Of a stretch of DNA of 64,000 nt, positions 17,024-58,567 are shown in pieces. Numbering within the stretch: position 1 is the stretch's first letter; the number at the start of each line of letters is the position of its first letter. Under the pieces are notes generated by a model, which worked only from the letters and a program-made list of their open reading frames with translations, made no database searches and was not told the origin of the DNA. This DNA comes from Lutjanus erythropterus (lineage: Eukaryota > Chordata > Actinopteri > Lutjaniformes > Lutjanidae), in contig CM034613.1 in the NCBI GenBank assembly GCA_020091685.1, forward strand, positions 23,670,856 to 23,734,855. Direction: 5' to 3'. A program made the position numbers and the translations under genes.

Positions 17024-20000
17024 CTAATCCTCCGACATAGCGTGCCACTTGGCGATCTGGCGACGCGGGTGGTCGCAGATCTCCCTCCAGTGCTCGCCGG
17101 GGGTGCCCGCCGCCGCCGTGCCCAGCACCAGGCGCCCGAGGATGGTGTTGGGGTCTGAGTCCATCAGCAGCAGCTCCACGCTGGTGTCCCTCAGGCCCTC
17201 GTCGGAGGGCAGATCGAAGACAAAGAGCTCGTTGAAGACCGGGTTCGGGGAGCATTTCTTCACATGGGTCTTCTTCTTGCACACGCGCTTCTTCCCGTGG
17301 TACATGTTCACCTTGACGTATGGATCTAGAGATGAAGAATGACAACAGAACAAGTATGAAGTAAGGACAAAGGCGATAAAAAACGATATGGTGAATTTCT
17401 ATCCCTGCAGCGGCCGCAGAGAGGCATATTATTCCTAAGCCAGATCAATGCAGCAATCGATGGAGCGGAAATGATGGATGTTAGTGATGAGGACAAAAGA
17501 GGCTGGCTGTGTAAACACTTTGTGTGTGTGTGTGTGTGTGTATGTGTGTGTGCTTGTCACTAAAGTGCTCTGTATCACATCCTGATCAGATTACTTTAGT
17601 GCAGTAGCGGTGTCATTATGGCAACTATCACAGCATCCAAAGTAGTCTGGGCTGCGTGGCAGGAAGAGCAAAGTGATTTTTTGTCTCATCTGTTTATGGT
17701 TATATGAGGGAAGTTCATGCATTTGTGTCTGTCTGCGTAAGCAGCGATGGCACGGTTCAGCCGACAGAGCACAGACCTGTAGGTCCGTTGTTCTCGGTCT
17801 TGGGCAGGTGGCGAGCTTTGAGGACGACCACGGTCAGAGTGTTGGTGGTGGACTGGTAACACAGGGACAGCAATAACTCGCCTCGGCCGGAGGACTTCTG
17901 TGGAGAGAGACGGGGGTGGATGGGCGAAACCGAGCGAGGTGGTGGGGGACAGAGTAAGGGTGTGAAAATAAAACAAAAAGGTGATGTAAAAAGAGATGGC
18001 AGGTGTGAAAGGAGACAGAGAAGAAGAGACTTTCAGACATGTTCATCAGCTTCCAAACCAGACACTAAATTACACCATATTACTAAACTGTTTTCAGAAT
18101 TATGTTGTGTTGACAACATAATTCCGGCCTGGATTATGTTTACAGACAACATTTCTTTGAAACAATGCATCTATGCAACACACTGGATTTGCAAGACGGC
18201 GGCTAGGTTTGTCTTGCAATTCGAAAGCTTGCTGGTTACTGATTGTCTGGGCTTTTCTAAATGCAAAATCATTGCTTGAACGGCAGCAAAAACAGCCACT
18301 AACAAGCCTGTGCCCCTTCCATTTAAGGACATGCCTTACTAGTCAAGATGCTCTCCCCCGTTTCTCCTCAGGGGTAGACACACGACATCACCATGTCACT
18401 GCCTCAATATGATGGGCTGCCCTAAACATTTGGTTCTGCAATGCAGTTTTTGAAAACTCTTTAACTGTGTCTTTAGTAATGCTGCAGGCACAAGGACTAG
18501 ATGGTGAAGTTACAAGCCTATTTTGGGGAAAACACATGAAATACATTGTAGGTGAACATTCAGTATCTACATTTTTGCGACTTGCCAGGCATGTTAATTA
18601 ATAACATTTCTTCATTATGCCAATAGAATACATATTTTGGTGTCTCCACTTCCTCTAACATGAAATCAAAATATTCCAGATACGAGTGCTCACATCTTGT
18701 GCTGGTGTCATCATTTGCACAATAGTGACCAACATTGGAGTAGTGCTGACGAATACAGACCAAATCTGACAAAATCACAGGCAGAGCTCAGCTGTCATTA
18801 AGGATGTGAACCTCCCTTTTTTATAGAATCAAATAACTAATTAAAACCAAACTGGTTAGAAAAATGAACACTTGAGCAAACATTAGCGTGATAAGAACTA
18901 CCTAAAAAGACAGAGACCATCCTTGGGAAAACTTTATTTTACTTGTGCTTTGATGTTTTAGTTTGATCCCTGTCCTGTCTAGTAAATTGGAGGGGGCTGG
19001 GTTTTTGACCTATACTGCAGCCAGCCACCAGGGGGCGAGTCAGATGGTCTGTCTTCACTTTTGGGGAGCTGTCATGTTGTCTGTCTGTCAATTGGTTGCA
19101 CCCACACATATTTAAGACAAATAAACAAACATGTGTTTATCACTTTTAAAGCACACCTTCCATTTAACCTGATCATGTTTATTGCCACAGAGGCTGTATG
19201 CAAAGAAAACCTCTGTCCTAATAAATTGTAACGCATTGTAAATATATTATCATTGCATTTTACTGTATTTTCCTCAAGCTTTAGTGGGTAAAAATATATT
19301 TTAAAAAAGAATACATTCAGTAGTACTTAATAGGGTGTGGCAATTGGCAAATTGGCAAATATGTAATAATAAATAACTTAGCAAATAATTAGCTATTATC
19401 AACAATGCTGAGGTGAATCCTGCAGTAAATGGTGTCAGTCCCGACTTTTAAATGGCTGTTGACTAAACAATCAACACCTGCTCATGGGGTGTGTTCTCAT
19501 GTCTTAACCAGCACAAATGTGTAACTGAGAGCCTCTGCATCTGCTCTGCATTAGTGCTTTCACTGTGTCGCTCCTCTGCAATTTGAGCTTCACACACACA
19601 TCCGTGTCGGCGTCCACACCCAAGAGAGTTGACGCCTCGGATGCTGTGATCACACCTAACGGGATGTCATGCCGAGGATCATGGTTGCCATGGCAATGAG
19701 AGGTGCTGTAGCAGGCAGGCAACTTCTACCCCTGACCTTAATGGTGAGGTCTCCGAAAATAAGGATGTGAGTTTGCAGCTGATGTTTTATTTTCCATAGC
19801 ATTTCTCTAGATATAAAAATGTGAAGGATAAGTAACCACACAAATATTCTACTCTATTCTATTGTTTTTGTTGTCTTCCAGGGTGAAAACGGGGCGATGG
19901 CTATGCTGCTTGCGACATGCTGTATCGACTCCATGAACTGCAGCGTGCTCACACGCACACGCACACACACACACATGCATACAGTCACACACACATTCCC

Positions 20001-23000
20001 ATACAAGGCGGTGAGACAAAATCTATGCCAGCAGACAAAGAGAGCCACCACCCTGTTACCAAAAGAGATGCTTCTAATCAGAGGGATCGATGTACGCAGC
20101 TCATAGTGAGAGAATTCAGCCAAAAATCATCTTAAAACAAATGCATGTCATACACATAACCACATGAAGATATTAAATACTGGGTGAAATAAAACTATTC
20201 TGTTTAATCAGCTGTTTTTGGCATTATGTAAATTAATGAAAAATGGCTGTTTACACATATTTTTTTTTTTTTTACATAAAGTGATCATAAGAACTAGTGG
20301 CATTATATCCTCTATAAATAAAGGAAACACTTTGAACAAGTGCACAGCAAATAACTACAGTAAAAGAAGCCAAACCTTTTTCTCTTTGCACCAGCCAGCA
20401 TCCAATTCAACAAAAGAATCCCACTGCAAAGCAATAACCATACCATAGATTCTAGCATTAACTTTCCACTGACTGCCCAAGAAAGCATTCAGAAGCACAG
20501 CAGACTCCTCCCTACAGCAGAGCTTTATGAGAGTTGTCTCTCCTGGGACCACAGTGAGGAATAGAACTGTGGTTAGTGTCAGTGTGGAGCGAGCCAGCAG
20601 ACTATTATCCTCTTGATGATCAAAAAAATAAATAAAAATACAGAGCTAGCTCTGCTGAGAGAGAACAATCGTTTTATATTTCTCAGAATCTAAGTCGCAT
20701 TTCTCAGCACATCTCTGGAGTACTATATCGTATCAGAGATCTTTTAAGATATTACAGATAGCTCACATTCCTCCTGGGAGCGTAGAAATGTGTGCGAGTA
20801 TATCCGCTCCCACCTGGTAGGCACAGTGCTTCCATTTTCGCAGAGCACAACACTAACCCACAAATCTATTATTACATTGATATCATCTCACATTCCACCT
20901 GCAAATGGCTCACGTAGAGTCAGACCATCTCGTACCAATCTTAAGAGCTGCTGTATACGACAACACCACAGAGCTATGATAAAGATAGAGATATCATCTT
21001 ACACCCCGTTCTTTAAATTTACCAACACGCTTAATGTAATGTTGCCAGTCCTACTTCTGGCACAGCAGTCCAGTGCATTTTCAGGATATAAACAGTACTG
21101 AGTGCTGCAGGAATGAGTGCTAAAACCCGGAAATGAGTTGGCATTTTTTCATCTTTGTTTATTTCAACTTGAAGTCAGTGGGTTTTGTGTAGATGCCTGA
21201 AATAAGGTAAGTGGTTAATGCTTTAAAGCTTATGAGATATTCATGTTTTCTTCTATGGCATGAAATATATCTCCTAAAAAGGCACCACAGAACTTATTTT
21301 CTCCTTCAACATTTGTATTATTTTCTGCACTAATCCAATCACAGTACTGCAGCAAGTTACATCATCCTACGTCTCCACAACTGGTGCTGATACTACTGTA
21401 CATGACATTCATCCAAAAGGAAAAATGTCCTACTGGAAATGAGCTACAGCTAGCATCTGTGGTCCTTACAGTTGCCAGGAACAGTCGGTCAGGAGAAGAA
21501 GTCTATTGACCACCAGCCCACAGATCCATAATGGTGTGGTGTGGATATCACTCAATGTACTACTGGGAATGTAAAAACATCCACATGGTGGTCTCTTCCC
21601 TTTCAAACTTATTGTCCCTGCATTGCTGTTTTTTTTATTTATCTGATGCTGTTTGGATATAAAGATCTTCACTAAATTATAGACAAATTCATTCAGATTA
21701 TTCAGAAGTCTAGGCCTCATTTGCTAAGTGGCATATATTTTGAGAGGAAACATGTCATATGTCATATTTATCACATAAATGACATATCTTCGGGATTTCA
21801 TAATAATTGACTCTTCATTAATTTGTTACATTTAGTAAAATAGGATACTGAACAGAAGTAAAAACTGACAAAACAAATAAAAAGAAACAGCAAAGGCTTT
21901 CATGTATCCATTTAAGAACAACACCAGACCTCAGTATCAGCTTACAAATCCATTAATGGTGTCTCCATAGAGCAAAACACTTCCTATCTGCTTTTTATCA
22001 TTGGTTTTTAATCAACAGGAACACGTTACCACCCAACTAGAGATAGATGCAATGAAAGTGAGTTGATTCAATGCATTTGACCTCGCATTAAAACTTAAAT
22101 TCAAGATGCAGATTATGTCATTAAATTAACACTTGAAAGCAGTATGACAGATTTATGTGTGATTTCAAGGAACATAATATGATGTATTTGCATCTAGGTG
22201 AGTTAGAGAAAGCTCAATGATTTAAATATCATTACATTTTAATAAGAAAATGGATCTCAGGATGATTATGCACTGATCGATGTTCTGATTAATACTGTAA
22301 TGGTGGAAGCACTTTGTTGCAGTGCTTTTAGGGATGATGCCAGCACTAGTGTCATAAATGATGAGTCATTACTGGAGCAGTTTTGTACCAAAAAAGGCCT
22401 GTTTCTTGAATTGGTTCCTTTCAAGATTCTTGGAACCTTGGTGTTATCTAGAAAACTATCCCCATCACCAACACAGGCGTTAAACAATGCACAGCCCAAA
22501 TGTATAATATGACACAACCACTTTGGTTCCCATGGAAAACCGGCTATTTTTTGGTTCCATTTGGTAACCACTTCTCAAGTTCTAATTACTTTTTGGTGGA
22601 AATGCTCCGAATGGTTCAGAGTTAGGTGGAAAAGCCCTATGTATGTGTCTGTGATTGCATCTAAAGGTAACTGATAACAAAGAACAAATAAAAAATAGTG
22701 AATTCAAAAGGTTGAAACACTAAAATTGTTCCAGATCTTACCTTGACATTCTTCTTGATGATCTCTCGGCTCATTAGGACACGCCCCTCCGATAAGTCGA
22801 TCCCGGACAAAGGTACAAGGGTTTCTCCGATGACCTCATCACGGGAGAACCTATCAAAGCTCAGCACCATGAAGTGAAGGGCCAGCTCCGACACTCGGGC
22901 CAGCGGGATCCCGTAGAAGCTGAAGGTCTCGTCGAAGGCGGGGTCCAGGGTCTTTCTCAGGACTCTGGTCTTCACGCGGTGCTTTTTCTCCGGCAGCAGG

Positions 23001-26000
23001 GTCAGCTTGATGTAAGGGTCAGAGGTCAGCGACTGCTCATCGGTCGGGGACAGGCCATGGGCTTCCTGGATCAAAAAGTCAAGTCAATCAATTAATCAAT
23101 CTTTATTTAGATTTCCATCAAAAAAGCCGATTGTAAAGACACACATCTAAACATCAGGCTAAACATGTACAGTACCTTGATGTGGACGATGAACGCCTTC
23201 CTCTCTGGCTGGTACTCCAGAGAGAAGTGGAGAGTCCCTAGCCCACCCTCCCTCTCCTCTCCCTGTGGCTTGTCCACAGCCGGGGTGGCCACCTGGCTGG
23301 AGAGGGTGCTGGATGGTGAAGGGAGGTCACGGCGGTCCATTGCCCCAGGTTGGGTAAACCCTGCGTGGGGTGAGGGCAGCTCCAGGTCCGGGGAGCTCCG
23401 CACCTTCTGGTGGTGGTGATGAAATGGTTTGGTGGTGAAGTTTCCATTCAGATCCCGTTTCTCCAGATCCAGATGCAGAGCCGGTCTAGAATCATTTGGA
23501 CTTGACGCCTGTTTACCGGTGCCGGTCGGACTCATTAGCGACGTAGTGTGGCAGTTTCCATTAACGTCAGTTTTACTGGCGTCGCTAGATGTCGTGGTGG
23601 CAGGTGCAGCGAACTTCTTCTTGCCGCTGAGGCTCTCTGGGTAGATGTCGACCCCTTTGAGCATGTGCACGAACTTGTAGGGAGGTGTCTTCTGGGATTT
23701 GGTGTTTTTACGCTGGCAACAGATCCATGCAAAAGCTGACACAGTGAAGACGAGGCCAAAGACGCTCACCACCGCAACACCAACTGGCACTGCCACTATG
23801 GAGGAGGACAGAGAAGAGTGGGGATATTAAATTTGTATCACAGTGTTGGAGTGTGTAGTCAGAATTTATAACTAAACAACACATATATCAGTTAATGCTT
23901 TTTAAGTCCCGCCGCTGTCTGAACCTCTGGAATTTCTTCTTTCCTGTTTCCTGATTTGAGACAGGCTATGTGCTAGGCTCATCTGTGTTGAAAAGAAAAC
24001 CAAATTCTGATTAAAACATGTTGCTACTGTTAGCAAAGCGCTAGCGAGTGAGCTACTCTAATCTACATCAGTCATTAGTTAGCTAGTGATTTGCTCTGTA
24101 GCTGAAAACTAGCTAACTACCAAGCTAATCCACGTCCATAGTTAGCTCTAGTTAGTATGAGTTTTGCTAACATTAGTTAACTGTCACCCAGCAAGGTCTT
24201 TTACCATCTTTAAACCATTTTTTCCCCTTTTTTGTTTTTTTCTTAACAAAAAAAGAGAAATTTGACCAAGGTTTGCTGGGTACCAAGCTTGCTCAACTGT
24301 TATTAGAGCACAGAGCAAAAAGGGGCAGGACTTCAGAAGGGTCAGTTGTGCAGCTTGCACAACCTGCACAGATTTAATTGTTGCACTGAGGCAACTGAAT
24401 CCATTTTGTGTGTCTGACTGACGCAGGCTGCAGTCTTGACTCAGAGAGAGAGGAAAACAAGGCAATCTGTTCAACTCTGACGAAGTATCATCAGTGCTGT
24501 GCTCATATTCCAAACATGGCTTCAGTAAATCAACAGGAAGCAGCTGGTGTAAGTAATGAACTGCTGGGAAAACGACAGAACGCCATTATGCGACTGGTTG
24601 ATTTCTTGATGGCAGGTTTAGAAATGGCTGAACTCAGACGAAGCAGAACGTAAAAAAGTAACAAGACCTTGCAACAACACAAATTGAGAAAAATGCACTC
24701 TATTTTTCTGTTTCCTGGTTTCACAACAATCATTACGGTCACAGTGTCAGTCGATGATAACAGACCTACAATGTAAACAGGTTAGGGATGATTTTTTGAC
24801 GAATGACCAGGCTTTCAAGAGGAAACATCAGGAACATTCTGGTCAATACAGAGAACAAACACCAATTTATATAACACAGCAAAACAAGTCCTCGTGGATT
24901 ATATATCATTTGTTTTGTACAAAGCTTGTATCCTTGATATTCCATCTCCAAGAATGGCATAATAGCTCAGAAATGTGTGATAGGCCCTGTGATATATCCA
25001 TTTATATTCCTCTTACAGTAGCAATGGAAGAAGATTTGCTCAAATAACAAGACGTATTACAGGGATATTTGCCACTGAATGCTTCGGCTCTTTGTTTCGT
25101 GGTGTTGAACTGTGACTCAGCAGCAATCACACTGCCTTCTCATGCAGTCAGAGTTAATAGGTCTATTCCAATGGAGGAAACACAGACCATTTCCTGCAGT
25201 TAAGAGGGCGGCCCAGTGGAAAAGCACTCAGGTTAATACCCATACAAAGACTGGGGTGGGGTGGGGGTAATAACTCATGTGCTTGTCTTACGGTTCTAAA
25301 TTTTTGATCGCTCATTTACATTTATCTTTATTTGGGTGATTCTGGTGCTGAAAGTGTCATGTTGACACAGCAAATAATACATGTAAACAAAATATATTAT
25401 CCTACTTATTTTACTGCAACTGACATATAGAACATTACAGGTAATCTGTGACATTTCATACCAGTTTTACTCGCAATATCTGCAATATCTGATGTGTAAT
25501 TCACATTTCTTATGGTGTTATTCAAGAGGTTATAAAGCCTATATATTCGTTGCAAGTGCATGCTCTAAGATAGCTTTGCTGTGATAGCTGTAGGCATTTA
25601 AAATGTACCACGAATCTGAAGGGACTGCCTCTCATTCAGACCTCTCTGTGGGTGAGCGATAAGATAGTAAGTAAGATTATTTCAATTTTACATCACAGCA
25701 CTTGTACATACTGTTTTCTCCCTTTTCTCTGTATTAATATTTCAGGCTCACGCCCTGGGTGGAGTGGTTTTCCAAGGCAACAACAACAGACAGATGGATG
25801 TGGCAACGGGAGGGCGGTGAGGGAGCTGCTGAACCGAGAGGAGAGAAAGAAAAACAAACAGGTGCTTCCCAGGCTTCACCTGTGCTATAGTAACACCTAC
25901 TCAATTCCCTTATCATAGTGAATATATACAATGCCTGGAAATGGCAAAAACAGCGCAAAAGCAGATCAGTACATTCAAAATGGCTGACATCCTTTTGGGT

Positions 26001-27231
26001 TTCAGGTTTGTTCGTTTGGGTATGATACATGTGCCTACTGATTTTTCACAGAAGTGAAATGTTAGAGGAGGACTGCTTTGTTGAAATTTTGTAGGTGGCG
26101 CTGTCCAGCTTTTTAGCGCCCACATGTAAGACCCATATCAGATGTAAATTTCCACCACTTCTGACAGAGCTAAGTTTCATGAGTATTTGAGTATGTTCAG
26201 CCCCTGAAAATGTATTTATTTTGTTTTTGAATAACCATATCCTTAAATTTCAGTATCTTGAAGAAGTACTGGAATCATTTCACCAAGTCTTATATTGAAA
26301 ACCTCTCAACAATTTAAATTGACATCATGTCCTTTACAATGTTTTTATTGCTGCTCTCCTGCTTTCTAGGAAACTGTTGCTAATTTATTTTGATGCTAGG
26401 CAATATTCACCATCGTCTGGTGGTTTAGCGCAGTTTAACGTGAAAGCGATCCCCACCTTGCTGGTTAGTTATCTGAATAATTAGCCTCACCTTTAAGCTA
26501 GCTGCAAATGGCGGCTGGAGGCCCAACCCCTTGGTTGGGCAAAACACTGAACAAGGCCATTAACCTTCACTTGAGTATTTCTTAATATAATAGGCTCCAA
26601 TTTACCTGCAATGTCATTGTTAAAAAAAAGCCAAAATTAACATAAACTAGAAATTCGCAGCGCTAATAATGGCTAACGCCAAGATGACAAATGTGTTGTT
26701 TGGCCCTCAACACAGAGGATTAAAGAAACATGAAATGTTAACATTTGAGAACTAAATTTTAGACATTTTTTCCTAAAAAATATCTCAAATAGTAATAAAC
26801 TACTTAACTAACAAGACGCGCATGGTCACACCTGCTTCTTCCGTAATGAACAGTCCTTTTGACGGCCGCCATATTGATATGAAATAATGGGGTAAACACA
26901 GGTGTTACCAGTCATTCTAATTAAGGTCCCGTTTTTTTAGTGCAGAGCCTTACCACGGGCCTTAATTAACCTTAATTATCACTGCTAACACCTGTGTTTA
27001 CTGTTTCACGTCAAAATGGCCGCGGGTATAAAAGGTGTATTGAACAGATTTCGGACTTAGGCGTAACGGTGCATGCGGCCATGAGTTCATTCCCGCCTGT
27101 GGCGCTTTCGTATTTTCTCCCCATTTCCTGTCTAACGATGTCCTGTCAATGTAGGCTAAAAGCCAAAATTAAATTAAATTGAATTAAATAAAAAGGAGTT
27201 CCGGCTCACCGAGCTGAGCTCCTTCCTCCAT
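17024..27231 (-). CDS. syt4: Synaptotagmin-4-like vesicle C2 protein
   Basis: Five coding exons join in frame (463 codons with stop): 27210-27231, 23176-23795, 22742-23065, 17777-17897 and 17024-17325, all with GT-AG borders. The 462-aa product has a short N-terminus, one membrane segment (about residues 8-30) followed by WICCQRK, the TPPYKFVHMLKGVDIYPESL block, a long linker containing LHLDLEKRDLNGNF, then C2A (about 190-322) and C2B (323-462). The linker motif and the HPRRQIAKWH ending point to Syt4 rather than Syt11. C2A carries Ser283 (SFDRFS) where Ca-binding synaptotagmins have Asp, the known Syt4/11 substitution. C2B keeps a KKKTHVKK polybasic patch and a WHxL-like end (WHAM). Synaptotagmin 4 acts on dense-core and other vesicles in neurons and endocrine cells. 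The C2B Ca loops look unusual (see findings). The exon 1 choice is fixed by phase: only the ATG at 27231 joins exon 2 in frame. Confidence 0.93.
17898..22741 (-). other. syt4: syt4 intron between C2A and C2B exons
   Basis: This 4.8-kb intron is bounded by GTAAGA (donor) and CACAG (acceptor) on the minus strand. It holds a (CA)n tract near 19945-19995, the dispersed repeat at 19008-19083 and poly(T/A) runs. The stretch at 22400-22640 contains GGTTCC/GGAACC-like words and may be another dispersed element. No other exon is visible. Confidence 0.7.
19008..19083. repeat. Dispersed teleost repeat fragment
   Basis: CAGCCACCAGGGGGCGAGTC followed by AGATGGTCTGTCTTCACTTT matches a short interspersed sequence I recognise from many percomorph introns. 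Only this fragment is visible; class unknown. Confidence 0.45.
24025..24185. repeat. TTAGCTAG-rich repeat block
   Basis: Repeated words TTAGCTA, AACTAGCTAACTA and AACATTAGTTAAC fill about 160 bp. This composition is typical of degenerate fish interspersed repeats. It lies within syt4 intron 1; no boundaries or coding content are evident. Confidence 0.45.
25960..26215. repeat. Dispersed teleost repeat in syt4 intron 1
   Basis: The core GTAGGTGGCGCTGTCCAGCT, followed by GTAAGACCCATATCAGA and the ending TGAGTATGTTCAGCCCCTGA, resembles a dispersed sequence I know from percomorph genomes. Borders are approximate and the class is not established. Confidence 0.45.
26852..27024. mobile_element. Palindromic MITE-like element in syt4 intron 1
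   Basis: The left arm (GGCCGCCATATTGATATGAAAT, GTAAACACAGGTGTTACCAG, CTAATTAAGG) is repeated in inverted orientation on the right (CCTTAATTATCACTG, CTAACACCTGTGTTTAC, TTTCACGTCAAAATGGCCGC). The two arms cover nearly the whole ~170 bp, so either strand could form a long hairpin. There is no coding capacity. This looks like a fold-back MITE. It begins about 185 bp inside the intron from the first coding exon of syt4. Confidence 0.7.
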
Positions 27232-27239
27232 GGAGCCAT
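27210..27239 (-). other. Upstream out-of-frame AUG (uORF start) of syt4
   Basis: Eight bases before the syt4 ATG is another ATG (27239-27237) in a stronger context (ACCATGG; the main one has TCCATGG). Through the same splice it reads MAPWRKELSS, then 9 more codons, and stops at TGA 23768-23766 inside exon 2, overlapping the main frame. It would make a 19-aa peptide. Scanning ribosomes would meet it first, so syt4 translation may rely on leaky scanning. It is also possible that transcription starts below it. Confidence 0.6.
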
Positions 27240-27240
27240 G

Positions 27241-27261
27241 GTCGCTGTCCGAGGTGCTGTA
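27241..27261 (-). promoter_or_regulatory. RE1/NRSE (REST-binding) site
   Basis: On the minus strand this 21-mer reads TACAGCACCTCGGACAGCGAC, one base short of the 21-base RE1 consensus length limit for quoting in full. It agrees with the established RE1 consensus (TTCAGCACCACGGACAGCGCC) at 18 of 21 positions, including both half sites AGCACC and GGACAGCG. It lies 10 bp upstream of the syt4 start codon. REST silences neuronal genes outside neurons, so a site here fits a neuronal synaptotagmin. The match is seen directly; binding is inferred. Confidence 0.75.
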
Positions 27262-27769
27262 CCGCTCCGTGTGCTGTCACGCCGAGCTCTCTTCTCTGGT
27301 CAGCCCGCTCTCCTGGCGTCGACGTGCGGTTTAATCTCCGCAGTGATTGTGTTGAATAATTCACGGTCTTGTGTAGAGCTTCAATAATTTAAAAAAAAGC
27401 CTTGTTTTGTTTTTGGTTTTCCCAGGAGAAAGATGTAGGGATGCTCTGTGTCCTCGCCCTGCTGCTGATGCTGCTGATACTCTGTGATGCGTGAGTGTGT
27501 CTCAGAGGCGGCAACACCCGTTTCTTCTCCTCTCTCTTTTCCTCGCTGCCCAGTTGTTTTCTATGTCTCTCTCCCAGCCTCTGTTCACCGGCTCCTCCTC
27601 CTCCTCCCGCCCTTCCTCCCTCCGCCGGTACCGCTGAGCTCATCAGCGCTGACGCAGTGGTGACGGAGGCTGGCTGTGAAATCAGGACCCCCAGTGTAGC
27701 AGCACAACCGGGCTGCCAATTCTACTGATTAATCGTTAGAGAATGAACGGCCTTTAGTCTGTATCTCCA

Positions 27770-30539: not shown

Positions 30540-33144
30540 TTTTCCCGAAGCTTATGAAGATGTATTTTCATGAGGCATCGTTGAAAAGATCGAGAGGATC
30601 TGCTGCTGCAATCTGACATCTGTGAGACTTCTGACAACTTTTACTAAAACGCTCGTTTCGTCAGTTTCGCTCTGGTCGTCAGAATACTGAGTCAGGAGAA
30701 CACCGTCGTGTTGTGTCGCTTTTTAGTCCTCATTTGACTGAAGACACACAGGTAATGTGTTCATGTGCAGTTTCATTCTTATTTCTATATGCAGGCGGTA
30801 TTTATATTCCAAATTTACCGCTATGAAACGTTTTATGAAATTTGTTTTGTTTCTTCCAAAACACAACATGTGGGCAGGTCTTAGAGCACAACAGAGAGGC
30901 GGGTACATTAAACGTCACAGCAGGAGGGTCACTCTTTCGAGGCCTCGATCCTCTCTTCTCTTGTGAAACCTGCTGACAGCTAAAACTGTAGTTTGTCTCT
31001 GACTCCTGGAGTTTATTCCAACAAGGGTGATAAATAAATCTGCTCTTAACTGAAAAAGCCTGACCTGAATTAACTAGTCTCCACTCAATGTTTAAACTGT
31101 TCACTAAGACAACAGCCTGGTGTGGAGGACTCTAACTAAAGTCAGGATAAAACGAGCTGAACTCTGTTTTATTACATTTGTTAATAAATGTCTAACCTGC
31201 TGCAGGGTTCAAATCCATAACTGTTCATATTGATATGACCAACTACATAACAATCTGCTCAATAAGACGTTTTCTTATTCACAGGGTGTCCATTTGATTT
31301 ACAGGCATCATCTGCTCATTGGCATTCCAAGTCAAAAACTGGACATGAAGCAGAAAAATGTAGAAATTATAAGTTGAAGTAGGAAATAGAGAAGTGGAGA
31401 AGTATGAAACTAAACAGAGCAGAAAGACATGTTTTGGACTTTAGTGTTTTTGTTTTCACAGCTTCAACAAATGAGTGAATGAATGAAACTTTGCACACCT
31501 TTTTCTAAAATTATAAATTCAGACAGGTTCAAATAATCTGTCAGCCTGTGAAGACAATAGAGTTGTAAGATGTGATTTTCTGTCTGTAATAATTACAAGT
31601 GATTTCAATGCATATTATTATATTATTTTAAATGTTTGCTGTAATTTTTGACAGCTTCAGGAGAACAGACTTCTTGTTGCTGTGGTTCACCTGTGTCTCA
31701 GATGATCTGCAGGATCCTGCTGCTCATCAAGCTGACCTCCTGTGTCTGTGGTTAGTTTACACCTTCACTTTATTATCCATCAAGACAAAAGACACTTTGA
31801 CACTTGAGTCTTTAAATGTGTGAGGAGGAAGGTCTCTACAGCACTGAGAGCATCACTAAACTCTCCACACAAACATCTCTAGATGGAGTTTAAAGTTGTC
31901 AGTTTGTCTGCTCCTCACTTTCCCTCTCTGTCTCCTCAACAGGAACATTTGTAGTGAATGTGACACAGACCTCCTATCAGGCAGAGAGAACCACAACATC
32001 ACACTGGAATGGACGTTCACAACCACAACTGACACGTCCCTTGATTCTGTTTCAATCTACTGAAATTGAATGATCAATGATTCTCTCAAGAACCCAGGAG
32101 TGTTTCATCTACATGAAGGTGTTGAGGTCTCAGAGTCTCAGGATGAACAGTTTGGGGCGAGTCCAGTGTGACAAAGACGTCCTCAGAGAAGGACGAGTCA
32201 GACTTCATGTGTCCAGACTCAGGACTGAAGACTCGGGCCTGTATGTCTGTGAAGTGAAAACAAGTGACAGTTGGGGCTCTAACAGATGTCGTCTCAATGT
32301 CACTGGTGAGTTGATTCAGTAGTTTAGTAAACCAGATTTCCATCTTAGAGCCGTGCTGCTAGTGTTGCTAAACTGTCGTCATAATGACGTGAGTCCAACA
32401 GTCGTCCTCCTAGAACCTTCAAACTGCTTGTTTTGTCCACCAACAGTCCAAACACTTGAATCCATTTTCTGTCCTTTACAGCAGCTGCTGGTGAGTCCAA
32501 ACCTCAGAGACAAACAGTGAGTCCACAACCAGAGTCGGGAAGGACGGGCCTCTATGCTGGACTGGGACTGACAGCAGCAGCAGCAGTAGCTCTACTGAGC
32601 TTGTCCATGTTTGGTTTAAGTGGCAGAAAACAACTGCAATATGAACTGTATATTTTTCTGTGTTAAATGATCTTCATGTTCCTGTGAGTTTGACTTTAAA
32701 TGAAGTTCTTACAGCAGAAATAATTCATGTCAATATTAAAAATGCTTCCATTGTCTCAGATTGTCCACGTTTGATATCAGACTGTTACCATCAGCTCAGA
32801 AGTGTAAAAACAGACTGTAGCTGCCTCGACTCCATTCAACATCCTCCACTGTCACGTCTCTAAAATGTCCCGGTTGTCTCAGTTTTCACTGTATGAAGAG
32901 TTTTTCAGAGGAATCATTCAGATTTATCTGTAAGTTGCTTCAGTCATTGATCACTCTGTTCTGCAGCAGCTCTTATCAATCATCAGTCTGACAAAATGTG
33001 TCTGGAACCAACAAGACAACAGAATTATAAGAGAACTGCACCTTTAATTATTATATTTGAATGTAATGTCCACTGATGGATTGATGGATGTTGTTACACT
33101 GTATGTTATTTCCTACTGTTTATAATGTACATATTGTAAATAAA
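30540..33144 (+). pseudogene. Ig V-set gene, array unit 1 (disrupted)
   Basis: Exons: 5'UTR to 30751 (donor GTAATG), signal peptide 31702-31750 (MICRILLLIKLTSCVC), Ig exon 31943-32305, membrane exon 32482-32666, AATAAA at 33139. The Ig exon would encode a V domain like the intact gene at 46-47 kb. Compared with unit 4 it lacks a G in the GAG-GAG pair (near 31985), a TG after ATCTAC (near 32061) and bases in the GCAGGACGA codons (near 32153), so the frame is lost. Its membrane exon is the only one of the four with an open frame through the membrane segment (GLYAGLGLTAAAAVALL) to TAA. It is either a pseudogene or a gene with assembly errors; V-set identity is firm. Confidence 0.75.
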
Positions 33145-33766: not shown

Positions 33767-33889
33767 AGTCGTTTTGCAGTCCGGTGAACGGCTGATTCTT
33801 TTTGACACTTGACATCAGACGGAGAAAACTTCCCATCAAAAAGCTTCTCAGTGATAACCATTCACCACCGGTGACACCGGCGATACTGC

Positions 33890-36800
33890 AGAAGTGTTTT
33901 TCCGAAGCTTATGAAGATGTAGTTTCATGAGACATCGTTGAAAAGATCGAGAAGGATCTGCTGCTGCAATCTGACATCTGTGAGGCTTCTGACATCTTTT
34001 ACTAAAACGCTCGTTTCGTCAGTTTCGCTCTCTGGTCGTCAGAATAATTCAGTCAGGACTGAGAATACTGTCGTGTTGTGTCGCTTTTGGTCCTCATTTG
34101 ACTGAAGACACACAGGTAATGTGTTCATGTGCAGTTTCATTCTTATTTCTATATGCAGGCGGTATTTATATTCCAAATTTACCGCTATGAAACGTTTTAT
34201 GAAAATTAGTTTTGTTTCTATCATTCATTTGATAATAAAATAAAATACATTGTTCTATCTAACTTAGTTTTAAAGACGCTGTGAAAAACACAATATAAAA
34301 CTTCTGTGAGGTAATAAACTGTTGTGTGGGCAGTGTGTCACAGACCCTGCTAGGGGACCAAAGATCGGATAGTTCATGTCGCATGAGTGCGGCTTAACGG
34401 GTTTTCAGCTTAGACTAAAGCAGAGAGGCGGGTACATTAAACGTCACAGCAGGAGGGAGGCTCACTCTTAAGGTGGCTCCTCTCTTCTCTTGTGAAACCT
34501 GCTGACAGCTAAAACTGTAGATTGTCTCTGACTCCTGGAGGTTGTTCCAACAAGGTTGATAAATAAATCTGCTCTTAACTGAAAAGCCTGACCTGAATTA
34601 ACTTCAGTCTCCACTCAATGTTTAAACCGTTCCACTAAGACAACTTAGCCTGGTGTGGAGGACTCTAACTAAAGTCAGGATAAAACGAGCTGAACTCTGT
34701 TTTATTTACATTTGTTAATAAATGTCTAACCTGCTGCATGGTTCAAATCCATAACTGTTCATATTGATATGACCAACTACATAACAATCTGCTCAATAAG
34801 ACATTTTCTTATTCACAGGGTGTCCATTTGATTTACAGGCATCATCTGCTCATTGGCATTCCAAGTCAAAAACTGGACATGAAGCAGAAAAATGTAGAAA
34901 TTATAAGTTGAAGTAGAAATAGAGAAACTGGAAGTATGAAGCTAAACAGAGCAGAAAGACATGTTTGGACTTTAGTGTTTTTTGTTTTACAGCTTCAACA
35001 AACGAGTGAATGAATGAAACTTTGGCACACCTTTTCTAAAATTATAAATTCAAACAGGTTCAAATAATCTGTCAGCCTGTGAAGACAATAAGAGTTGTAA
35101 GATGTGATTTTCTTAACTTTTTTTTTTTAGTTAATATGTTTTTTGAGCTTAATTAAACACGCAAATTCATACTTGACCACAAGAAAAGGTCTGAACTTGT
35201 GTTCCTATATGGACAGAAGTGATGAGAACACAAAGACACTTGATGGGATTCTCTATTTTCCATTTTACTGTTGGGGACAATAAAGAAAAACTTGTCAAGA
35301 GTAATTCCTGAAGGAGACACCAAAGGTTCTGCTCATAGTTCTGTTGTATTAATGTATATATCAGGAAACTTTATTACTTCTGTATACTGGATAGTTTAAA
35401 GGGCTGCAGCAGCAGGTTTTAAATAATGATATTAATAGTAATAATAATAATATCAATATAAGAGAAAGGTTATTGTCTTATTTCAGTGTTTCTGAACTTA
35501 AAACACATTGTTCTGTGTCTGTAATTAAGTGATTTCAATGCATATTATTATATTATTTTAAATGTTTGCTATAATTTTTGACAGCTTCAGGAGAACAGAC
35601 TTCTTGTTGCTGTGGTTCACCTGTGTCTCCTCTGACAGGAGAAGATGATCTGCAGGATCCTGCTGCTCATCAAGCTGACCTCCTGTGTCTGTGGTTAGTT
35701 TACACCTTCACTTTATTATCCATCAAGACAAAAGACAACACACTTTGACACTAGTCTTTAAATGTGTGAGGAGGAAGGTCTCTACAGCACTGAGAGCATC
35801 ACTAAACTCTCACACAAACATCTCTAGATGGAGTTTAAAGTTGTCAGTTTGTCTGCTCCTCACTTTCCCTCTCTGTCTCCTCAACAGGAACATTTGTAGT
35901 GAATGTGACACAGACCTCCTATCAGGCAGAGGAGAACCACAACATCACACTGGAATGGGCACGTTCACAACAACGGACAGGTCCTTGTTGTCCGTTATAT
36001 CTACTGTGAGATGATGATAGATCCTCTCAAGTGTCTGTTTTATCTACATGAAGGTGTTGAGGTCTCAGAGTCTCAGGATGAACAGTTTGCAGGACGAGTC
36101 CAGTGTGACAAAGGCGTCCTCAGAGAAGGGCGAATCAGACTTCATGTGTCCAGACTCAGGACTGAAGACTCGGGCCTGTATGTCTGTAAAGTGAACACAA
36201 TCTATGGTTTGGGCTCTAACAGAAGTCGTCTCAGTGTCACTGGTGAGTTGATTCAGTAGTTTAGTAAAACCAGATTTCCATCTTAGAGCCGTGCTGCTAG
36301 TGTTGCTAAAACTGTCCATCATAATGACGTAGAGTCCAACAGTCGTCCTCCTAGAACCTTCAAACTGCTTGTTTTGTCCCACCAACAGTCCAAAACACTT
36401 GAGTCCATTTTCTGTCCTTTACAGCAGCTGCTGGTGAGTCCAAACCTCAGAGACAAACAGTGAGTCCACAACCAGAGAGTCGGGAAGGACAGGCCTCTAT
36501 GTTGGACTGGGACTGACAGCAGCAGCAGCAGTAGCTCTACTGAGCTTGTCCATGTTTGGTTTAAGTGGCAGAAAACAACTGGCAATATGAACTGTATATT
36601 TTTCTGTTAAATGATCTTCATGTTCCTGTGAGTTTGACTTTAAATGAAGTTCTTACAGCAGAAATAATTCATGTCAATATTAAAAATGCTTCCATTGTGT
36701 CAGATTTTCCACGTTTGATATCAGACTGTTACCATCAGCTCAGAAGTGTAAAACAGACTGTAGCTGCCTCGACTCCATTCAACATCCTCCTGTCCGTCTC

Positions 36801-42234: not shown

Positions 42235-44892
42235 AGTGTTTTCCCGAAGTTCATGAAGATGTATTTTCATGGGGATCGTTAAAAGATCGAGAGGATCTGC
42301 TGCTGCAATCTGACATCTGTGAGGCTTCTGACATCTTTTACTAAAACGCTCGTTTCGTCTGTTTCGCTCTCTGGTCGTCAGAATAATTCAGTCAGGACTG
42401 AGAATACTGTCGTGTTGGTCGCTTTTGGTCCTCATTTGACTGAAGACACACAGTAATGTGTTCATGTGCAGTTTCATTCTTATTTCTATATGCAGGCAGT
42501 ATTTATATTCCAAATTTACCGCTATGAAACGTTTATGAAATTTGTTTTGTTTCTATCATTCATTTGATAATAAAATAAAATACATTTTCACAGCGTCTTT
42601 AAAACTAAGTTAGATAGAACAACACAATATAAAACTTCTGTGATAATAAACTGTTGTGTGGGCAGTGTGTCACAGACCTGGATCAACTATGGGACCAAAG
42701 ATCGGATAGTTCATGTCTTTTGGGTTTTCAGCTTAGACTAAAGCAGAGAGGCGCGTACATTAAACGTCACAGCAGGAGGAGGCTCACTCTTAAGGTGGCT
42801 CCTCTCTTCTCTTGTGAAACCTGCTGACAGCTAAAACTGTAGATGTCTCTGACTCTGGAGGTTGTTCCAACAAGGTGATAAATAAATCTGTTCTTTACTG
42901 AAAAAGCCTGACCTGAATTAACTTCAGTCTCCACTCAATGTTTAAACCGTTCCACTAAGACAACTTAGCCTGGTGGGAGGACTCTAACTAAAGTCAGGAT
43001 AAAACAGCTGCACTGTGTTTTATTTGCATTTGTTAATAAATGTCTAACCTGCTGCAGTTCAAATCCATAACTGTTCATATTGATATGACCAACTACATAA
43101 CAATCTGCTCAATAAGACGTTTTCTTATTCACAGGGTGTCCATTTGATTTACAGGCATCAAGACATGTTTTGGACTTTAGTGTTTTTGTTTTCACAGCTT
43201 CAACAAACGAGTGAATGAATGAAACTTGGCACACCTTTTTCTAAAATTATAAATTCAGACAGGTTCAAATAATCTGTCAGCCTGTGAAGACAATAAGAGT
43301 TGTAAGATGTGATTTTCTGTCTGTAATTAACAAAGTGATTTCAATGCATATTTTTAGATTATTTAAAATGTTTGCTGTAATTTTGACAGCTTCAGGAGAA
43401 CAGACTTCTTGTTGCTTCTTGTTACCTGTGTCTCAGATGATCTGCAGGATCCTGCTGCTCATCAAGCTGACCTCCTGTGTCTGTGGTTAGTTTACACCTT
43501 CACTTTATTATCCATCAAGAAAAAGACAACACACACTTTGACACTTGAGTCTTTAAATGTGTGAGGAGGAAGGTCTCTACAGCACTGAGAGCATCACTAA
43601 ACTCTCCACACAAACATCTCTAGATGGAGTTTAAAGTTGTCAGTTTGTCTGCTCTCACTTTCCCTCTCTGTCTCCTCAACAGGAACATTTGTAGTGAATG
43701 TGACACAGACCTCCTATCAGGCAGAGGAGAACCACAACATCACACTGGAATGGACGTTCACAACCACAACTGACATGTCCCTCGATTCTGTTTCAATCTA
43801 CTGTGAAATTGAAATGATAAATGATCCTCTCAAGTGTCTGTTTCATCTTCATGAAGGTGTTGAAGTCTCAGAGTCTCAGGATGAACGGTTTGCAGGACGA
43901 GTCCAGTGTGACAAAGACGTCCTCAGAGAAGGACGACTCAGACTTCATGTGTCCAGACTCAGGACTGAAGACTGGGCCTGTATGTCTGTGAAGTGAAAAC
44001 AAATGATGGTGTGAAGCTCCGTGGATGTCGTCTCAATGTCACTGGTGAGTTGATTCAGTAGTTTAGTAAAACCAGATTTCCATCTTAGAGCCGTGCTGCT
44101 AGTGTTGCTAAAACTGTCCATCATAATGACGTAGAGTCCAACAGTCGTCCTCCTAGAACCTTCAAACTGCTTGTTTTGTCCTACCAACAGTCCAAAAGAC
44201 TTGAGTCCATTTTCTGTCCTTTACAGCAGCTGATGATGAGTCCAAACCTCAGAGACCAACAGTGAGTCCACAACCAGAGAGTCGGGAAGGACAGTCCTCT
44301 ATGCTGGACTGGGACTGACAGCAGCAGCAGTTGTTGCTCTATTGATTGTCTTTGCAGTCATCAGAGTTTGCATTAACACCAGAATCATAAAACCAACAGA
44401 CAGACTGTCCAATGCTACAGGTGATATGAACTGTATATTTCATATTTATTTATTTTAAATGAATTTCTTGCAGAAATAATTCATGTCAATATTAAAAATG
44501 CTTCCATTGTCTCAGATTTTCCACGTTTGATATCAGACTGTTACCATCAGCTCAGAAGTGTAAAAACAGACTGTAGCTGCCTCGACTCCATTCAACATCC
44601 TCCACTGTCACGTCTCTAAAATGTCCCGGTTGTCTCAGTTTTCACTGTATGAAGAGTTTTTCAGAGGAATCATTCAGATTTATCTGTAAGTTGCTTCAGT
44701 CATTGATCACTCTGTTCTCCAGCAGCTCTTATCAATCATCAGTCTGACAAAATGTGTCTGGAACCAACAAGACAACAGAATTATAAGAGAACTGCACCTT
44801 TAATTATTATATTTGAATATAATGTCCACTGATCAATGTCGTTACACTGTATGTTATTTCCTATTGTTTATAATGTACATATTATAAATAAA
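42235..44892 (+). pseudogene. Ig V-set gene, array unit 4 (one frameshift in the Ig exon)
   Basis: Exons: 5'UTR ending near 42452 (a base is missing at the donor: ACACAGTAATG for ACACAGGTAATG), signal peptide 43437-43485, Ig exon 43683-44044, membrane exon from 44227, AATAAA at 44887. The Ig exon is intact apart from one missing base in the D-S-G-L-Y motif (GAAGACTGGGCC near 43972). The domain shows NITLEW, SVSIYCEIE and RVQCDKDVLREGR. The membrane exon stops at TGA 44316-44318 in the expected phase. The alternative frame codes LYAGLGLTAAAVVALLIVFA and a basic tail (RVCINTRIIKPTD). This is the least damaged unit. Confidence 0.75.
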
Positions 44893-45988: not shown

Positions 45989-46853
45989 TCAGGTAGAGTG
46001 GAGTGCAGGAGGCCGACATGAGCGACAGACAGTCAGTACAGCTGCTGCTGCTGCTGCTGCTGCTGCTGACAGTCCCAGTGCAACACAGAGGCCCAGTCTC
46101 CCACGGATCACCACTGCTGGTTTTGGTGTGGGTTTGACAACGGCTGCTGGAAAAAACAATAAAAGTGTACTTGTCATTTATCTGAGGAGAACATTTTATA
46201 GAAACCTTCCTGTGGGCTAAATCACAACGAGTAAGTTGATTATTTACATCAAACATCAGTCAAACTGTTCCACATGTGAGCAGGTTCATGTGACGACCTT
46301 GAGTGGACTCACCAGTGATTTTCAGTGAGAACTGTTTGACCTTCCTGCCAAACTCAGTGGCCATCCTGCAGAGGTACAGGCCCGAGTCATCAGTCCTCAC
46401 TCTGGACACATCAAGTCTGACGCGTCCTCTTCTGAGAGCGTCTTTGTCACACTGCACCCGTCGTGCAAACTGCTTGTCCACAGGCTCGTCGACGCTGTCG
46501 TCCAGATGATAGAAGACCTTTATCTCAGGTACAGACACACAGTGGATCTTCAGTGAGGAGATCAAGATGTCGGCTTTGGAGGAGAAGCTCCATTCCACTG
46601 TGATGTTACTGTTCTCCTCTGCCTGATACTTTAGATTCATGTTGTGAGGCTCAAATGTTCCTGAAAGGACGAGACAGACAGAGATTAAAGATCACTGATG
46701 CCCCCCTCTTGAAACAGCCCTCAGGTTTCTGCTTGTTAAAAGGAAGCGTTTCTCTAAAGTCTGTATAATAACAACCCCACCCCCCAGTGAAGGTGTAAAC
46801 TAACCACAGACACAGGAGGTCAGCTCGATGAGCAGCAGGATCCTGCAGATCAT
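45989..46853 (-). CDS. Single V-set Ig membrane protein (intact relative of array genes)
   Basis: Coding exons 46805-46853 (signal peptide MICRILLLIELTSCVC), 46313-46660 (Ig domain) and 45989-46146 (stalk, membrane, tail) join to 185 codons (184 aa plus stop), with phase-1 introns and GT-AG borders. The V-like domain has an N-glycosylation site (NIT), SVDEPVDKQFARRVQCDKDA, RLDVSRVRTDD and the F-strand DSGLYLC motif. Trp occupies the usual B-strand Cys position (NITVEW) and Cys the usual C-strand Trp position (LKIHC). Next come a Pro-rich stalk, a membrane segment with an Ala run, and a 12-aa tail (CRSCRPPALHST) without ITIM, ITAM or charged membrane residue. It resembles fish B7/butyrophilin-like or other immune-type surface proteins; the exact family and ligand are unknown. 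It faces the array tail to tail. Confidence 0.85.
46041..46069. repeat. (CTG)n/(CAG)n trinucleotide repeat in coding sequence
   Basis: About nine CTG units on the plus strand, read as GCA/GCT Ala codons within the membrane segment of the minus-strand Ig gene. The array copies have shorter versions (GCAGCAGCAGCAGTAGC in unit 1). Confidence 0.85.
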
Positions 46854-49297: not shown

Positions 49298-50986
49298 TCA
49301 CAGCTGTGAGCTGTCATTGGTTGGAGGAGATGCTGGCGGTTGGGTGACTGCAGGTACATTTGCTGCTGTGTGCAGATTTACTGTGGGATGCAGAAACCAC
49401 AGCGGGTTGCGCAATCCACAGCGTCCCTGCTGCTCAAAGTATTCTTGCTCACATTTTTCCTTCTGTTTTCTCTCCGTCTCTCTGCAGCTGACTGTGAGAA
49501 AATCAGTCTTACTGTCTGAATCGCACACAGTGGCCAAATGCTCGTCTGTGGTCCTTTTCCTCATGAAAACATACAGAACCACGTCTGCAAGAGGACTCAA
49601 CTCAATAAGCATGAAAGACACTTTGTTGAAGGTGTTGCCATATGTGTCTCCGTTAGTCAGGAGCCAAACGGCTCTGGGCAGGAAGAGCAGTGAGTAAATC
49701 AGCAGCTCCGGGACCAAAACTCTCGCGATTCTGCGTTTTTCGGCCGAGGGAACAGAGCTGGAGGCAGCCAGGGCTTTGACGATCCCATCCAGGAAGAACA
49801 TGAGCGGGGGGAGGGGAAGCAGGAGGAAGACGGAGTAGACTATCAATAAAACCTCAAAATCAACCAAGAAATAAAAAGAGAGGACAGAGACAGCGGGCAA
49901 GGCCCAGACCAGGACACAGACAGCGACAGTCTTCTTGATGTTTCGTTCAGACTGGTACCTCAGCGGGTGACTGATGATCAAATACCTGCAACACAAGATG
50001 GACACGCTTCAGCATCACGCAGGAACATGACGGCGAGACGCGGAAGCAGCTACACGCATACCGGTTAGACAGACAGCTTACCTCTCCAGGGCGGCACACA
50101 GCATGAAGCTGACACGGACCGCCACGGCAAAATCAAAAATAAAAGACAGAATTAGCCTGATCCTCCATTCTGTAAATATCTCCATCGCAGCCATGGAGCA
50201 GAGCTGAAAGAGGTCGGCGATGAGCAGATTGACGTAGAACGGAGCAACACGATCATTTCGTCCCTGCGGGGAAACATCAGTAAGAGTGAATAAGGGTCGA
50301 TGACAAATAAAGAGTCTTTTCAAAACAACAAGTCTTATATGTTAAACAGCATTTTCAAGCATTCAAAATCAATTTTTGACTTTTTAACTTCATCACACAA
50401 AAAATGTCAGGTGGCACAATGTAATATGTGCAAAACTAAGTTAAATCTTTGGCAAGTGTCCCTTACAGTGTTCTCAGTGTCTGACATGTTATTATTTTGT
50501 GCTCTCTAAAAAAAAAGAAAAAAAAAAAAGTTGACACAACTTAAAATTTCAAGGCAACACACCGTAATAGATTTTCCACCAGCTGGAAACAGTTTTAACT
50601 TTTATAATGTAAAACCCCAGCCAAAATTAAAATCCTAGCACCGTGCGTGAAGTAAACAACTTAAAATTATATATAACACTAGAGTTTCTAGATATTTTAA
50701 TGTGGAAATGTTATATATTATAGCTTTAAAAGAAAGCTGGAATGGAGCCACAATGGCAAACTGCACATATAATCAACTTTATGTGAATTTTAACTATGAA
50801 ATCAATTATTTCTTTAAACGTTTAGGTCATTACAAGACTTCATCCCAGCCCAGATCCTGTACAGACAGACTGTACATAAACACATCTCAGTCGTAATGTA
50901 CATACCTGAGAAATACAAACAGCATTGATGGCCAAGAGGTTCAAGGGAAGGCTGGTAATACGGATCGCCCAAGGTATCAGATCCAT
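49298..50986 (-). CDS. Rhodopsin-class GPCR, fish expanded family (copy 1)
   Basis: Three coding exons, 50906-50986, 50082-50263 and 49298-49985, join to 317 codons (316 aa) with introns in phase 0 and phase 2; the second splits the Arg codon of E/DRY. Seven membrane segments are visible: TM1 about 5-25 (LPLNLLAINAV), TM2 with NLLIADLFQ (Asp44 = 2.50), TM3 ending LERY (87-90), TM4 with VLVWALP, TM5 with LLPLPPLMFF, TM6 with LLFLP, TM7 with SPLADVVLYVF (Ser at the NPxxY Asn). The C-tail is long (about 80 aa), hydrophilic, ending SSQL. It resembles fish receptors annotated as GPR4-like or orphan class A; the ligand is unknown. The N-terminus before TM1 is only a few residues, with an in-frame TGA 24 bases upstream of ATG. 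Confidence 0.85.
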
Positions 50987-55587: not shown

Positions 55588-58567
55588 ATGAGCCTTCAGT
55601 ACATCATGTATGTGTCGACATGGGTGATCATTTGTATCAGCCTTCCTGCGACCGTCGTGGCCATCTTTGCTGTTTGTTTTCAGGTACGTACCTAATGACT
55701 GAGATGTATTTATTTACAGTCTGTGTGATTGTGTGAACCTTTGTAGATTTCTTTTGTTCATCCACTGACTTTTCCTTTTGCCCACCCTGATTTTTTTTTT
55801 ACTGAAATATATCCATAACTTTATTAAATGACTTGCCATAAAAATAGAATAGAATAGAGACAAGCATGACAAGAGCTTGAACAGTAGTGTTTGTTTCTGA
55901 CATTTTCTGCGCCATCATCAGGTCAAACATTTTAATTTTTCCAGCTTTCTGGTTTATAACCAAACCTGCAACTAATGAATTTCCCATCAGCCTCAGCTCT
56001 GCTTTATGTTTGGTGCAAATTAGCAGATTCTTAGCATGCTAACATACTAAACTATAACACATCTTTTCAAATATCTGTTTCTGATTGAACTGCTGTGGAC
56101 GGCAGTGCAATTATAGACTCTAGAGGAGTGGTAATAACATTTTTAAAGGAATTAAATAATTTTAAAAACTGATGAGTCTGTCCTATTTATCACTGATAAT
56201 TATCAATCAGTAAAATTCATTTCACTTTGATTTGGACAAAAACTAAAGTGATTTCCACGTGTCCTTCATCATGGGACAGTGTCAGACCAACAGTATCATT
56301 TTTAATTACTGTTAATTGTGCAGTTGTCAGGTTAGAAATAAATGGCACACACTAAGTTAATTAGAAATTTGTTGCTTTTTGCCGTAATATATTTTTAATA
56401 TTCTCTACCCCTCTCCATTATAACGTCCTGTATGTCTTAGCTGAAGTGGGTGGCCAGTGTTTGCTCTACTTCGGGCGGAAGCAAAATCAAGTGATGCACC
56501 AAACGCCCCTTTTTAGTCAGAGGAAGAAAGTCTAAGTGGACAAATAAACAATTAACAACCACCATCATGTTACCCGGACCTCGGTGTTAGGTTTTGTTGA
56601 GGCAGCTCATACAAGGAAAGTGTTGAGTTTCATTGAAAATGTGTGGCGCGTGAAGCACAAATGTGCCTGAGCACCTGAAGTCATGCATCAGGCAAGAATG
56701 AGAAAAAACTCCAACAATTAGTGTCCTCAGTCTCTAAACACTTACTGACTGTGGTTAAAAGAAAAGGTGATGTGATACGGTGGTAAATGTGCCACTGTCC
56801 CAACTTTTTTGGAGACGTATTTGGGAGGAGGTGGAGTTCAGACATGTTTACAACTTCTTTACTGTTACCAATGTTTTCCTGCAGGTGCGAAAGGATAATG
56901 TTGGTCTGATCTACATCATAAACCTTCTCATTTCGGACCTGATTCAGCTCTGCTGCAGGCTCATAATGCTGACAGTATGGGATTGGGACATCTTCCGAAT
57001 AGCATCTCTTATCCACGATTATAGTGTGGGGGTCAGTGTCGGCTTCATGGTGTGTGTCGCCCTGGAGAGGTAGGTATCTTGGGCTGAGGGGGATGATTGC
57101 AGTTTGTGTTTTTACTATGAGGCAAAAAAAATAGAAAATAGGTTGGTTGTATGCTGTTATTATGTAGTACTGCAGGGATGACATGTTTGCAGACCAACAT
57201 GAACGTTGGCGTTGCCCTGGTTCCCTCCACAAAAAGCCAATGGGATTTTGCCAGTGGGGTTTGGATTGGTGCAGAAAATACACTCCATGGGGAATAAAAG
57301 GTTATGATACTTACAGGTTTGGTCCAGGAAGAAGATCTTCACAAATGAACACAACTTTTATGAGATTTTAAGTGTTTAGTGTGTTGCCAGGAGTAAAAGC
57401 TAATGTTTTTAGTAAACTACACCATGGTTGTGTGACCAACGTCACCCGCACTAAATAAACCTGCTAAAAATAGCCCATTGACCCCTTTTCTGTTGAGTTT
57501 TTTCTGATGTGTGCTGGAAAGCAAAGGCATTTTTTTAAAAGTGTGTGTATTCAGCTCTCAGTACTTTTGTAGCTTTTAACTGAATCTCTGTGGTTTGAAG
57601 TGTAGTTTCTCTCCTGTGTCGCTGTTTGTTCTTTCAGGCATCTGCTTTATTTCTGCTGTTTCATGGTCGCTTTCAGTCGAAAATGGTCATGTTGTCACAT
57701 GTCATTCCCTCCACTGCCTCTCTCCTTTTCCTGTCATATCTTCAGCTGTCAGATCGATTAAAGGCGTAAAAATACCTGCGTCTACTGCAGAGTCATTTGA
57801 CCAGGGAATAAATGGTGATTGCACCCTTTACCACTGTAAAAAAAAAAACAGATGTTAGCAGTTGTTATTGAGTTTTTTTGTCCAGTGTAAAGGGGGTTTA
57901 AAGTTTCTTTTTTTCTGTTTTTATGATAGCAGGAGGATGGATGGATAATTTATTTCAAAATAACTTGAGAGAATGGGTGGGATCTGTGCGCAAATGTGTC
58001 TCACCATTATATTCCTGTATAATGCTTGACTATGTGTCCATCTTGTGTTACAGGTATTTGCTCATCGCCCACTCGCTGTGGTACCGCTTCAAACGAACCA
58101 TAAAGATCCTTGTGCTGGTCTGTGTCCTGGTCTGGAGCCTTCCCCTTGCCTTTTTCCTCACTGCCTATGATCAGCTTGATTATAAGACTTTGGAAACCAT
58201 CTACTGTGCTTTCTTCCTGCTTCCACTCCCCCTGTTCATATTCTTCCTTGGTGGGACCCTCAAAACCCTGTCTACCACTGCCTCGGTTCCCTCTGACGAA
58301 AAACGACGAATCGTGGGAATGTTGGTCCTGGTCCTGCTTATTTACTCACTGCTGTTCCTGCCCAGAATCTTTTTTTTCCTGACTCTCAGAGACAACGTGA
58401 CCTTCGACTACCTGTCTTTCATGTTCATTCTGCTGAATCCCCTTGCAGATGTGGCTCTGTATGGTTTCATGAGGAAAGGGGCCATAGACAAGCTTTTGGC
58501 CACTGTGTGTTGTTGTAAAATGGACAGCAGTGATGTGAGCAGTGATGTGAGCAGCTCAGCGGTTTGA
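55588..58567 (+). CDS. Rhodopsin-class GPCR, fish expanded family (copy 2)
   Basis: Exons 55588-55683, 56885-57069 and 58054-58567 join to 265 codons (264 aa), with the same phase 0 and phase 2 introns as copy 1 at 49.3-51.0 kb. Seven membrane segments: TM1 about 7-29 (Thr in LPATVVAI where Asn1.50 is usual), TM2 NLLISDLIQLC (Asp50 = 2.50), TM3 ending ALERY (94 is Arg3.50), TM4 VLVWSLPLAFF, TM5 FFLLPLPLFIFFL, TM6 LLFLP, TM7 NPLADVALY. The loop SVPSDEKRRIVG and MRKGAIDKLLATVCCC link it closely to copy 1. The tail is short, with a Cys cluster (possible palmitoylation), a SSDVSSDVSS repeat and SSAV at the end. Ligand unknown; a GPR4-like label is only a guess. Confidence 0.87.
56683..56820 (+). 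mobile_element. DNA-transposon remnant in GPCR copy 2 intron
   Basis: The segment from ATGCATCAGGCAAGAATGAG through GTTAAAAGAAAAGGTGATGT to CTGTCCCAACTTTTTTGGAG is a decayed terminal part of a DNA transposon I recognise as abundant in fish. The other end of the same family is represented at 62166-62479. It ends about 60 bp before the exon 2 acceptor of the GPCR gene. Confidence 0.6.
57070..58053 (+). other. GPCR copy 2 intron 2
   Basis: A 984-bp intron between donor GTAGGT and acceptor TTGTGTTACAG. No further exon is supported; the frames in it lack domains. Confidence 0.7.

Follow-up and report, generated by a model that had tools for sequence, protein, structure and literature searches.

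Gene content of the window

The window analysed here, a 64-kb stretch of DNA from Lutjanus erythropterus, carries on its minus strand a gene whose five exons join into an uninterrupted reading frame of 462 codons and a stop codon, with GT...AG at the ends of every intron. Judged from the reading frame, the coding part of exon 1 would occupy positions 27210-27231 (minus strand), encoding MEEGAQL and ending with one base of the eighth codon, and it is followed by the donor GTGAGC at 27209. Exon 2 (23176-23795, minus strand) encodes a transmembrane segment, recognized by eye, and a linker, and its frame has no Pfam match. The C2A domain lies in exon 3 (22742-23065, minus strand), which matches Pfam C2 and whose top match among solved structures is 1ugk, synaptotagmin IV (E 6.8e-52). 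Exon 4 (17777-17897, minus strand) is a short frame without a Pfam match, while exon 5 (17024-17325, minus strand) encodes the C2B domain and the stop codon, again matches Pfam C2 and finds 1w15, also synaptotagmin IV, as its best structural match (E 8.5e-42).

An N-terminal transmembrane segment (by eye) followed by two C2 domains that are closest to Syt4 is the arrangement by which synaptotagmin 4 was recognized, and from its sequence we identify the gene as syt4, apparently intact. Syt11 is described as the nearest paralogue of Syt4 (PMC2823689). It is absent among the PDB matches listed for the C2A and C2B exons. We therefore take the gene to be syt4 rather than syt11 from the strong match to Syt4 together with general background on the two paralogues.

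On the 5' side of syt4 lies a series of similar immunoglobulin-like frames, at 35909-36256 and 43601-43993 on the plus strand and at 46263-46691 on the minus strand, with further similar frames near 32074 and 40175 (plus strand). When three immunoglobulin-like frames were scanned against Pfam, the frame at 46263-46691 passed the cut-off (I-set); one of the remaining two gave sub-threshold V-set and ig matches and the other gave none. Two receptor-like frames, at 49301-50008 (minus strand) and 57902-58564 (plus strand), have sub-threshold matches to Pfam 7tm_1, the rhodopsin family.

An RE1/NRSE match beside exon 1 of syt4

A candidate RE1/NRSE site, TACAGCACCTCGGACAGCGAC, lies at 27241-27261 on the minus strand. 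An earlier note on this DNA had described it as agreeing with the consensus at 18 of 21 positions, with both half-sites correct and at canonical spacing. Alignment to the canonical NRSE TTCAGCACCACGGACAGCGCC, the reference form taken from PMC3529185, bears out the count of 18 identical positions out of 21. The three differences are an A in place of T at position 2, one within the spacer at position 10, and an A in place of C at position 20. RE1 also has an alternative canonical form with ATGG in the middle, to which the site is identical at 17 of 21 positions. Both inner half-sites, CAGCACC and GGACAGCG, are intact, in canonical order and separated by the canonical 2-base spacer, as had been claimed; the description of both halves as correct holds for these inner parts, whereas each half has a mismatch in its outer part, at position 2 and position 20 respectively.

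How much the change at position 2 matters depends on the pattern used. This position is classed as core in PMC1794552, and none of the 15 printed sites behind our matrix (see below) carries an A there. Within the 14 fixed bases of the core TCAGCACCnnGGACAG, the T-to-A change at position 2 is the only mismatch, and the site would thus be admitted, with exactly the one mismatch allowed, by the zebrafish screen that returned 1102 sites with this core (PMC3531662); the same rule passes 10 of the 15 printed NRSEs. Because of the A at position 2, and at that position only, the strict 17-base pattern NTYAGMRCCNNRGMSAG of a frog screen (PMC4430910) does not match the site. This pattern served there as a search filter and not as a definition of RE1, and 9 of the 15 printed NRSEs fail it as well.

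Scoring with a position weight matrix was the check proposed for the site, and a high score was indeed obtained: 25.2, against 16.4 for the runner-up in the window. The matrix is a small, home-made one and not a published one, built from 15 printed sites (14 of them predicted human NRSEs near microRNAs, taken from one table), and by itself it is weak evidence. Leave-one-out scores of the 15 sites range from 8.9 to 35.0, and the score of TACAGCACCTCGGACAGCGAC lies above six of them and below nine. The position of the site below these nine would suit a variant of the functional reading, and one compatible with it, in which the change at position 2 weakens REST binding and leaves syt4 with no more than partial silencing in this species. 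We consider such a weakening unlikely, given that the score still exceeds those of six printed sites and that both inner half-sites are intact.

Rarity of the match

Allowing up to three mismatches to the 21-mer, with the spacer left free, the window contains TACAGCACCTCGGACAGCGAC and no other RE1. No match at this threshold appeared in 100 dinucleotide-preserving shuffles. Against a third-order Markov background modelled on the window and run over 39.6 million positions, no sequence came within two mismatches, and a single position reached the matrix score of the site, or about 0.003 such positions per 64 kb with both strands counted. The next best match to the core TCAGCACCnnGGACAG in the window, at 52214, has two mismatches, and when all exact copies of CAGCACC and GGACAGCG were listed on both strands of the window, the two occurred together at 27241-27261 only.

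These figures bear on whether the segment might resemble an RE1 by chance and not bind REST at all. The mismatch in the core at position 2 and the further mismatch at position 20 leave some room for this view, as does a looser measure of rarity: about 0.05 cores that differ at one of the 14 fixed bases are expected by chance in 64 kb, and many windows and motifs had been scanned at the first stage. Set against this are the far lower expectation for a score this high, the empty shuffles and the position of the site next to the start codon of syt4, which in mammals is a known target of REST. From the shuffles, the Markov background and the gene context together, we judge a chance match to be very unlikely.

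Other partial likenesses to RE1 occur in the window. Intron 1 of syt4 contains a lone perfect right half-site, GGACAGCGCC, at 26097-26106 (minus strand) and, about 750 bases past it, a lone perfect left half-site, TTCAGCACC, at 25344-25352 (minus strand); the two are too far apart for the spacing of a known RE1. Near-identical 21-mers (TTCACCACCRGTGACACCGGC), each four mismatches from RE1, are found at 33861, 38121 and 42204 on the plus strand, at intervals of 4260 and 4083 bases. They sit in the immunoglobulin-like region and are probably copies of a longer repeat rather than REST sites.

The start codon and an out-of-frame upstream ATG

The placement of the RE1 relative to the gene depends on the choice of exon 1. 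Exon 2 (first base 23795) requires a preceding exon whose last base is the first of a codon, which makes the ATG at 27231 suitable, as it joins exon 2 in frame through the donor at 27209. Nine bases separate the RE1 from this downstream, frame-compatible ATG, in agreement with the distance of 10 bp given in the earlier note. Between 31000 and exon 2 there are seven ATG-to-donor first exons of the right phase, and the one starting at 27231 adjoins the RE1. Its ATG has a G at +4 and no purine at -3; among the other six, four have neither feature, two have the purine only and none has both. We infer exon 1 at 27231 from its phase and its position at the RE1; a first exon without coding sequence may lie farther upstream. 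On this reading frame, the RE1 would lie within the 5'UTR. No match to TATAWA was found on the minus strand between 27241 and 27800. Some 420 to 435 bases upstream of the syt4 start, in a G+C-rich stretch, two CRE-like CGTCA half-sites lie at 27650-27665 (minus strand); they are consensus matches only.

There is also a second ATG, at 27237-27239 (minus strand), which is out of frame with syt4 and stands in a strong Kozak context (GACCATGG). A single base separates it from the RE1, and the syt4 ATG starts 8 bases further on. The reading frame that the out-of-frame ATG opens has 19 codons, begins with MAP and stops in exon 2. Human SYT4 also begins with MAP, and for this reason the ATG at 27239 may mark the ancestral start. 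It may thus be an ancestral start followed by a later change of frame, it may reflect a splice or an assembly or gene-model difference, or it may open a true uORF.

The last of these options raises another role for the segment, in the mRNA instead of the DNA, in which the surroundings of the two ATGs would govern how syt4 is translated, by way of an overlapping uORF. The strong context of the out-of-frame ATG, its closeness to the syt4 start and its 19-codon frame fit such a role, which would account for the ATG but not for the adjoining 21-base match to RE1; as the main explanation of the segment we find it highly improbable, and it could coexist with an RE1. A combination, in which one short segment holds two controls of syt4, with REST silencing the DNA and the overlapping out-of-frame uORF limiting translation of mRNA that leaks through, is an idea to which we give very little credence.

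Probable REST control of syt4

Published work establishes SYT4/Syt4 as a standard REST target. In human, SYT4 is reported among 15 known REST targets, each of which REST occupies in at least 14 of 16 cell types (PMC4055426). The mouse Syt4 promoter is described as RE1-bearing, with REST enrichment in ES cells confined to the surroundings of the RE1, and dominant-negative REST induces the gene (PMC2573930). Syt4 is also reported to rise after birth in the Rest-deleted lens (PMC5025245), and a review names it as one of the genes that a functional RE1 controls in beta cells (PMC5323410). A comparison of human, mouse and frog gives 111 genes with NRSEs in all three, 57 of which have ChIP support, syt4 included (PMC4430910). 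As described there, an NRSE in the frog screen could lie as much as 100 kb from the gene to which it was assigned, and among 85 homologous frog and human regions only 12 had NRSEs in both species; a common target gene therefore does not prove a common site. Under hyperactivity, cultured neurons given a REST decoy are reported to have shown an attenuated rise of Syt4 mRNA and an unaffected rise of the protein (PMC8639147), and REST is thus not simply repressive on Syt4 in every setting. The main texts of three papers on REST or on presynaptic genes (PMC1794552, PMC2728526 and PMC2687797) do not name syt4. In the passages of article text covered by our literature search, no sequence of a fish syt4 RE1 was found.

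In zebrafish, NRSEs are reported to silence reporters outside the nervous system, and knockdown of rest to relieve the silencing (PMC3531662, PMC3529185). According to one of these reports, the knockdown changed only 3 of 10 NRSE lines, and the UAS-E1b promoter was not silenced by NRSEs (PMC3531662).

We propose, with a probability of roughly 0.86, that the segment at 27241-27261 is a functional RE1/NRSE at the 5' end of syt4, which would recruit REST and its corepressors and silence syt4 outside neurons. This proposal is drawn from the match itself, its rarity and its position beside exon 1 of an intact syt4, all of which are seen in the window, and from the published work on REST and SYT4 and on NRSEs in zebrafish; binding, repression and the effect of cell type would follow by analogy with the mammal, frog and zebrafish publications. 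In non-neuronal cells and neural progenitors, REST would occupy the RE1 at syt4 and bring in its corepressor complexes, mSin3/HDAC and CoREST/LSD1/HDAC. These complexes would modify the chromatin of the promoter and keep syt4 off, and in neurons, where REST falls, syt4 would be released.

The earlier note had proposed that the site would explain neuron-restricted expression and that REST, once bound, would stop the promoter-proximal transcript. As regards the first part, a contribution of the site to this expression is well supported by the match, the identity of the gene as syt4 and the link between REST and SYT4 in human, mouse and frog. The second part, in which bound REST physically obstructs RNA polymerase in exon 1, draws on the location of the site just upstream of the start codon and inside the presumed first exon. 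It finds no support in the published work, since NRSEs placed upstream of promoters are reported to silence in zebrafish as well (PMC3529185, PMC3531662), which means that a physical block of the transcript is not needed, and since REST is described as a recruiter of histone-modifying enzymes (PMC2687797). We consider such an obstruction extremely unlikely and favour silencing through recruited corepressors.

Mammalian SYT4 has a known RE1, to which the segment at 27241-27261 probably corresponds. The two have in common the gene and a promoter-proximal RE1, for which REST occupancy has been published in mammals; the fish site has A at positions 2 and 20, and the two would be orthologous in position. 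With the canonical zebrafish NRSE (TTCAGCACCACGGACAGCGCC, core TCAGCACCnnGGACAG) it shares the 18 positions, the spacing and the inner half-sites. It differs in its one core mismatch and in its location within the presumed 5'UTR, whereas the zebrafish NRSE stood upstream of the reporter promoter.

Based on the sequence of the site and on these parallels, we consider the RE1 of syt4 an ordinary further instance of a known regulatory link, and very likely a functional one. It alters no existing picture. Rather, human, mouse and frog (the last by motif), in which syt4 was already known as a target of REST, are joined by a fish with a well-placed RE1 at this gene, and, if the site proves to be conserved, it would support an old vertebrate origin of the control of syt4 by REST.
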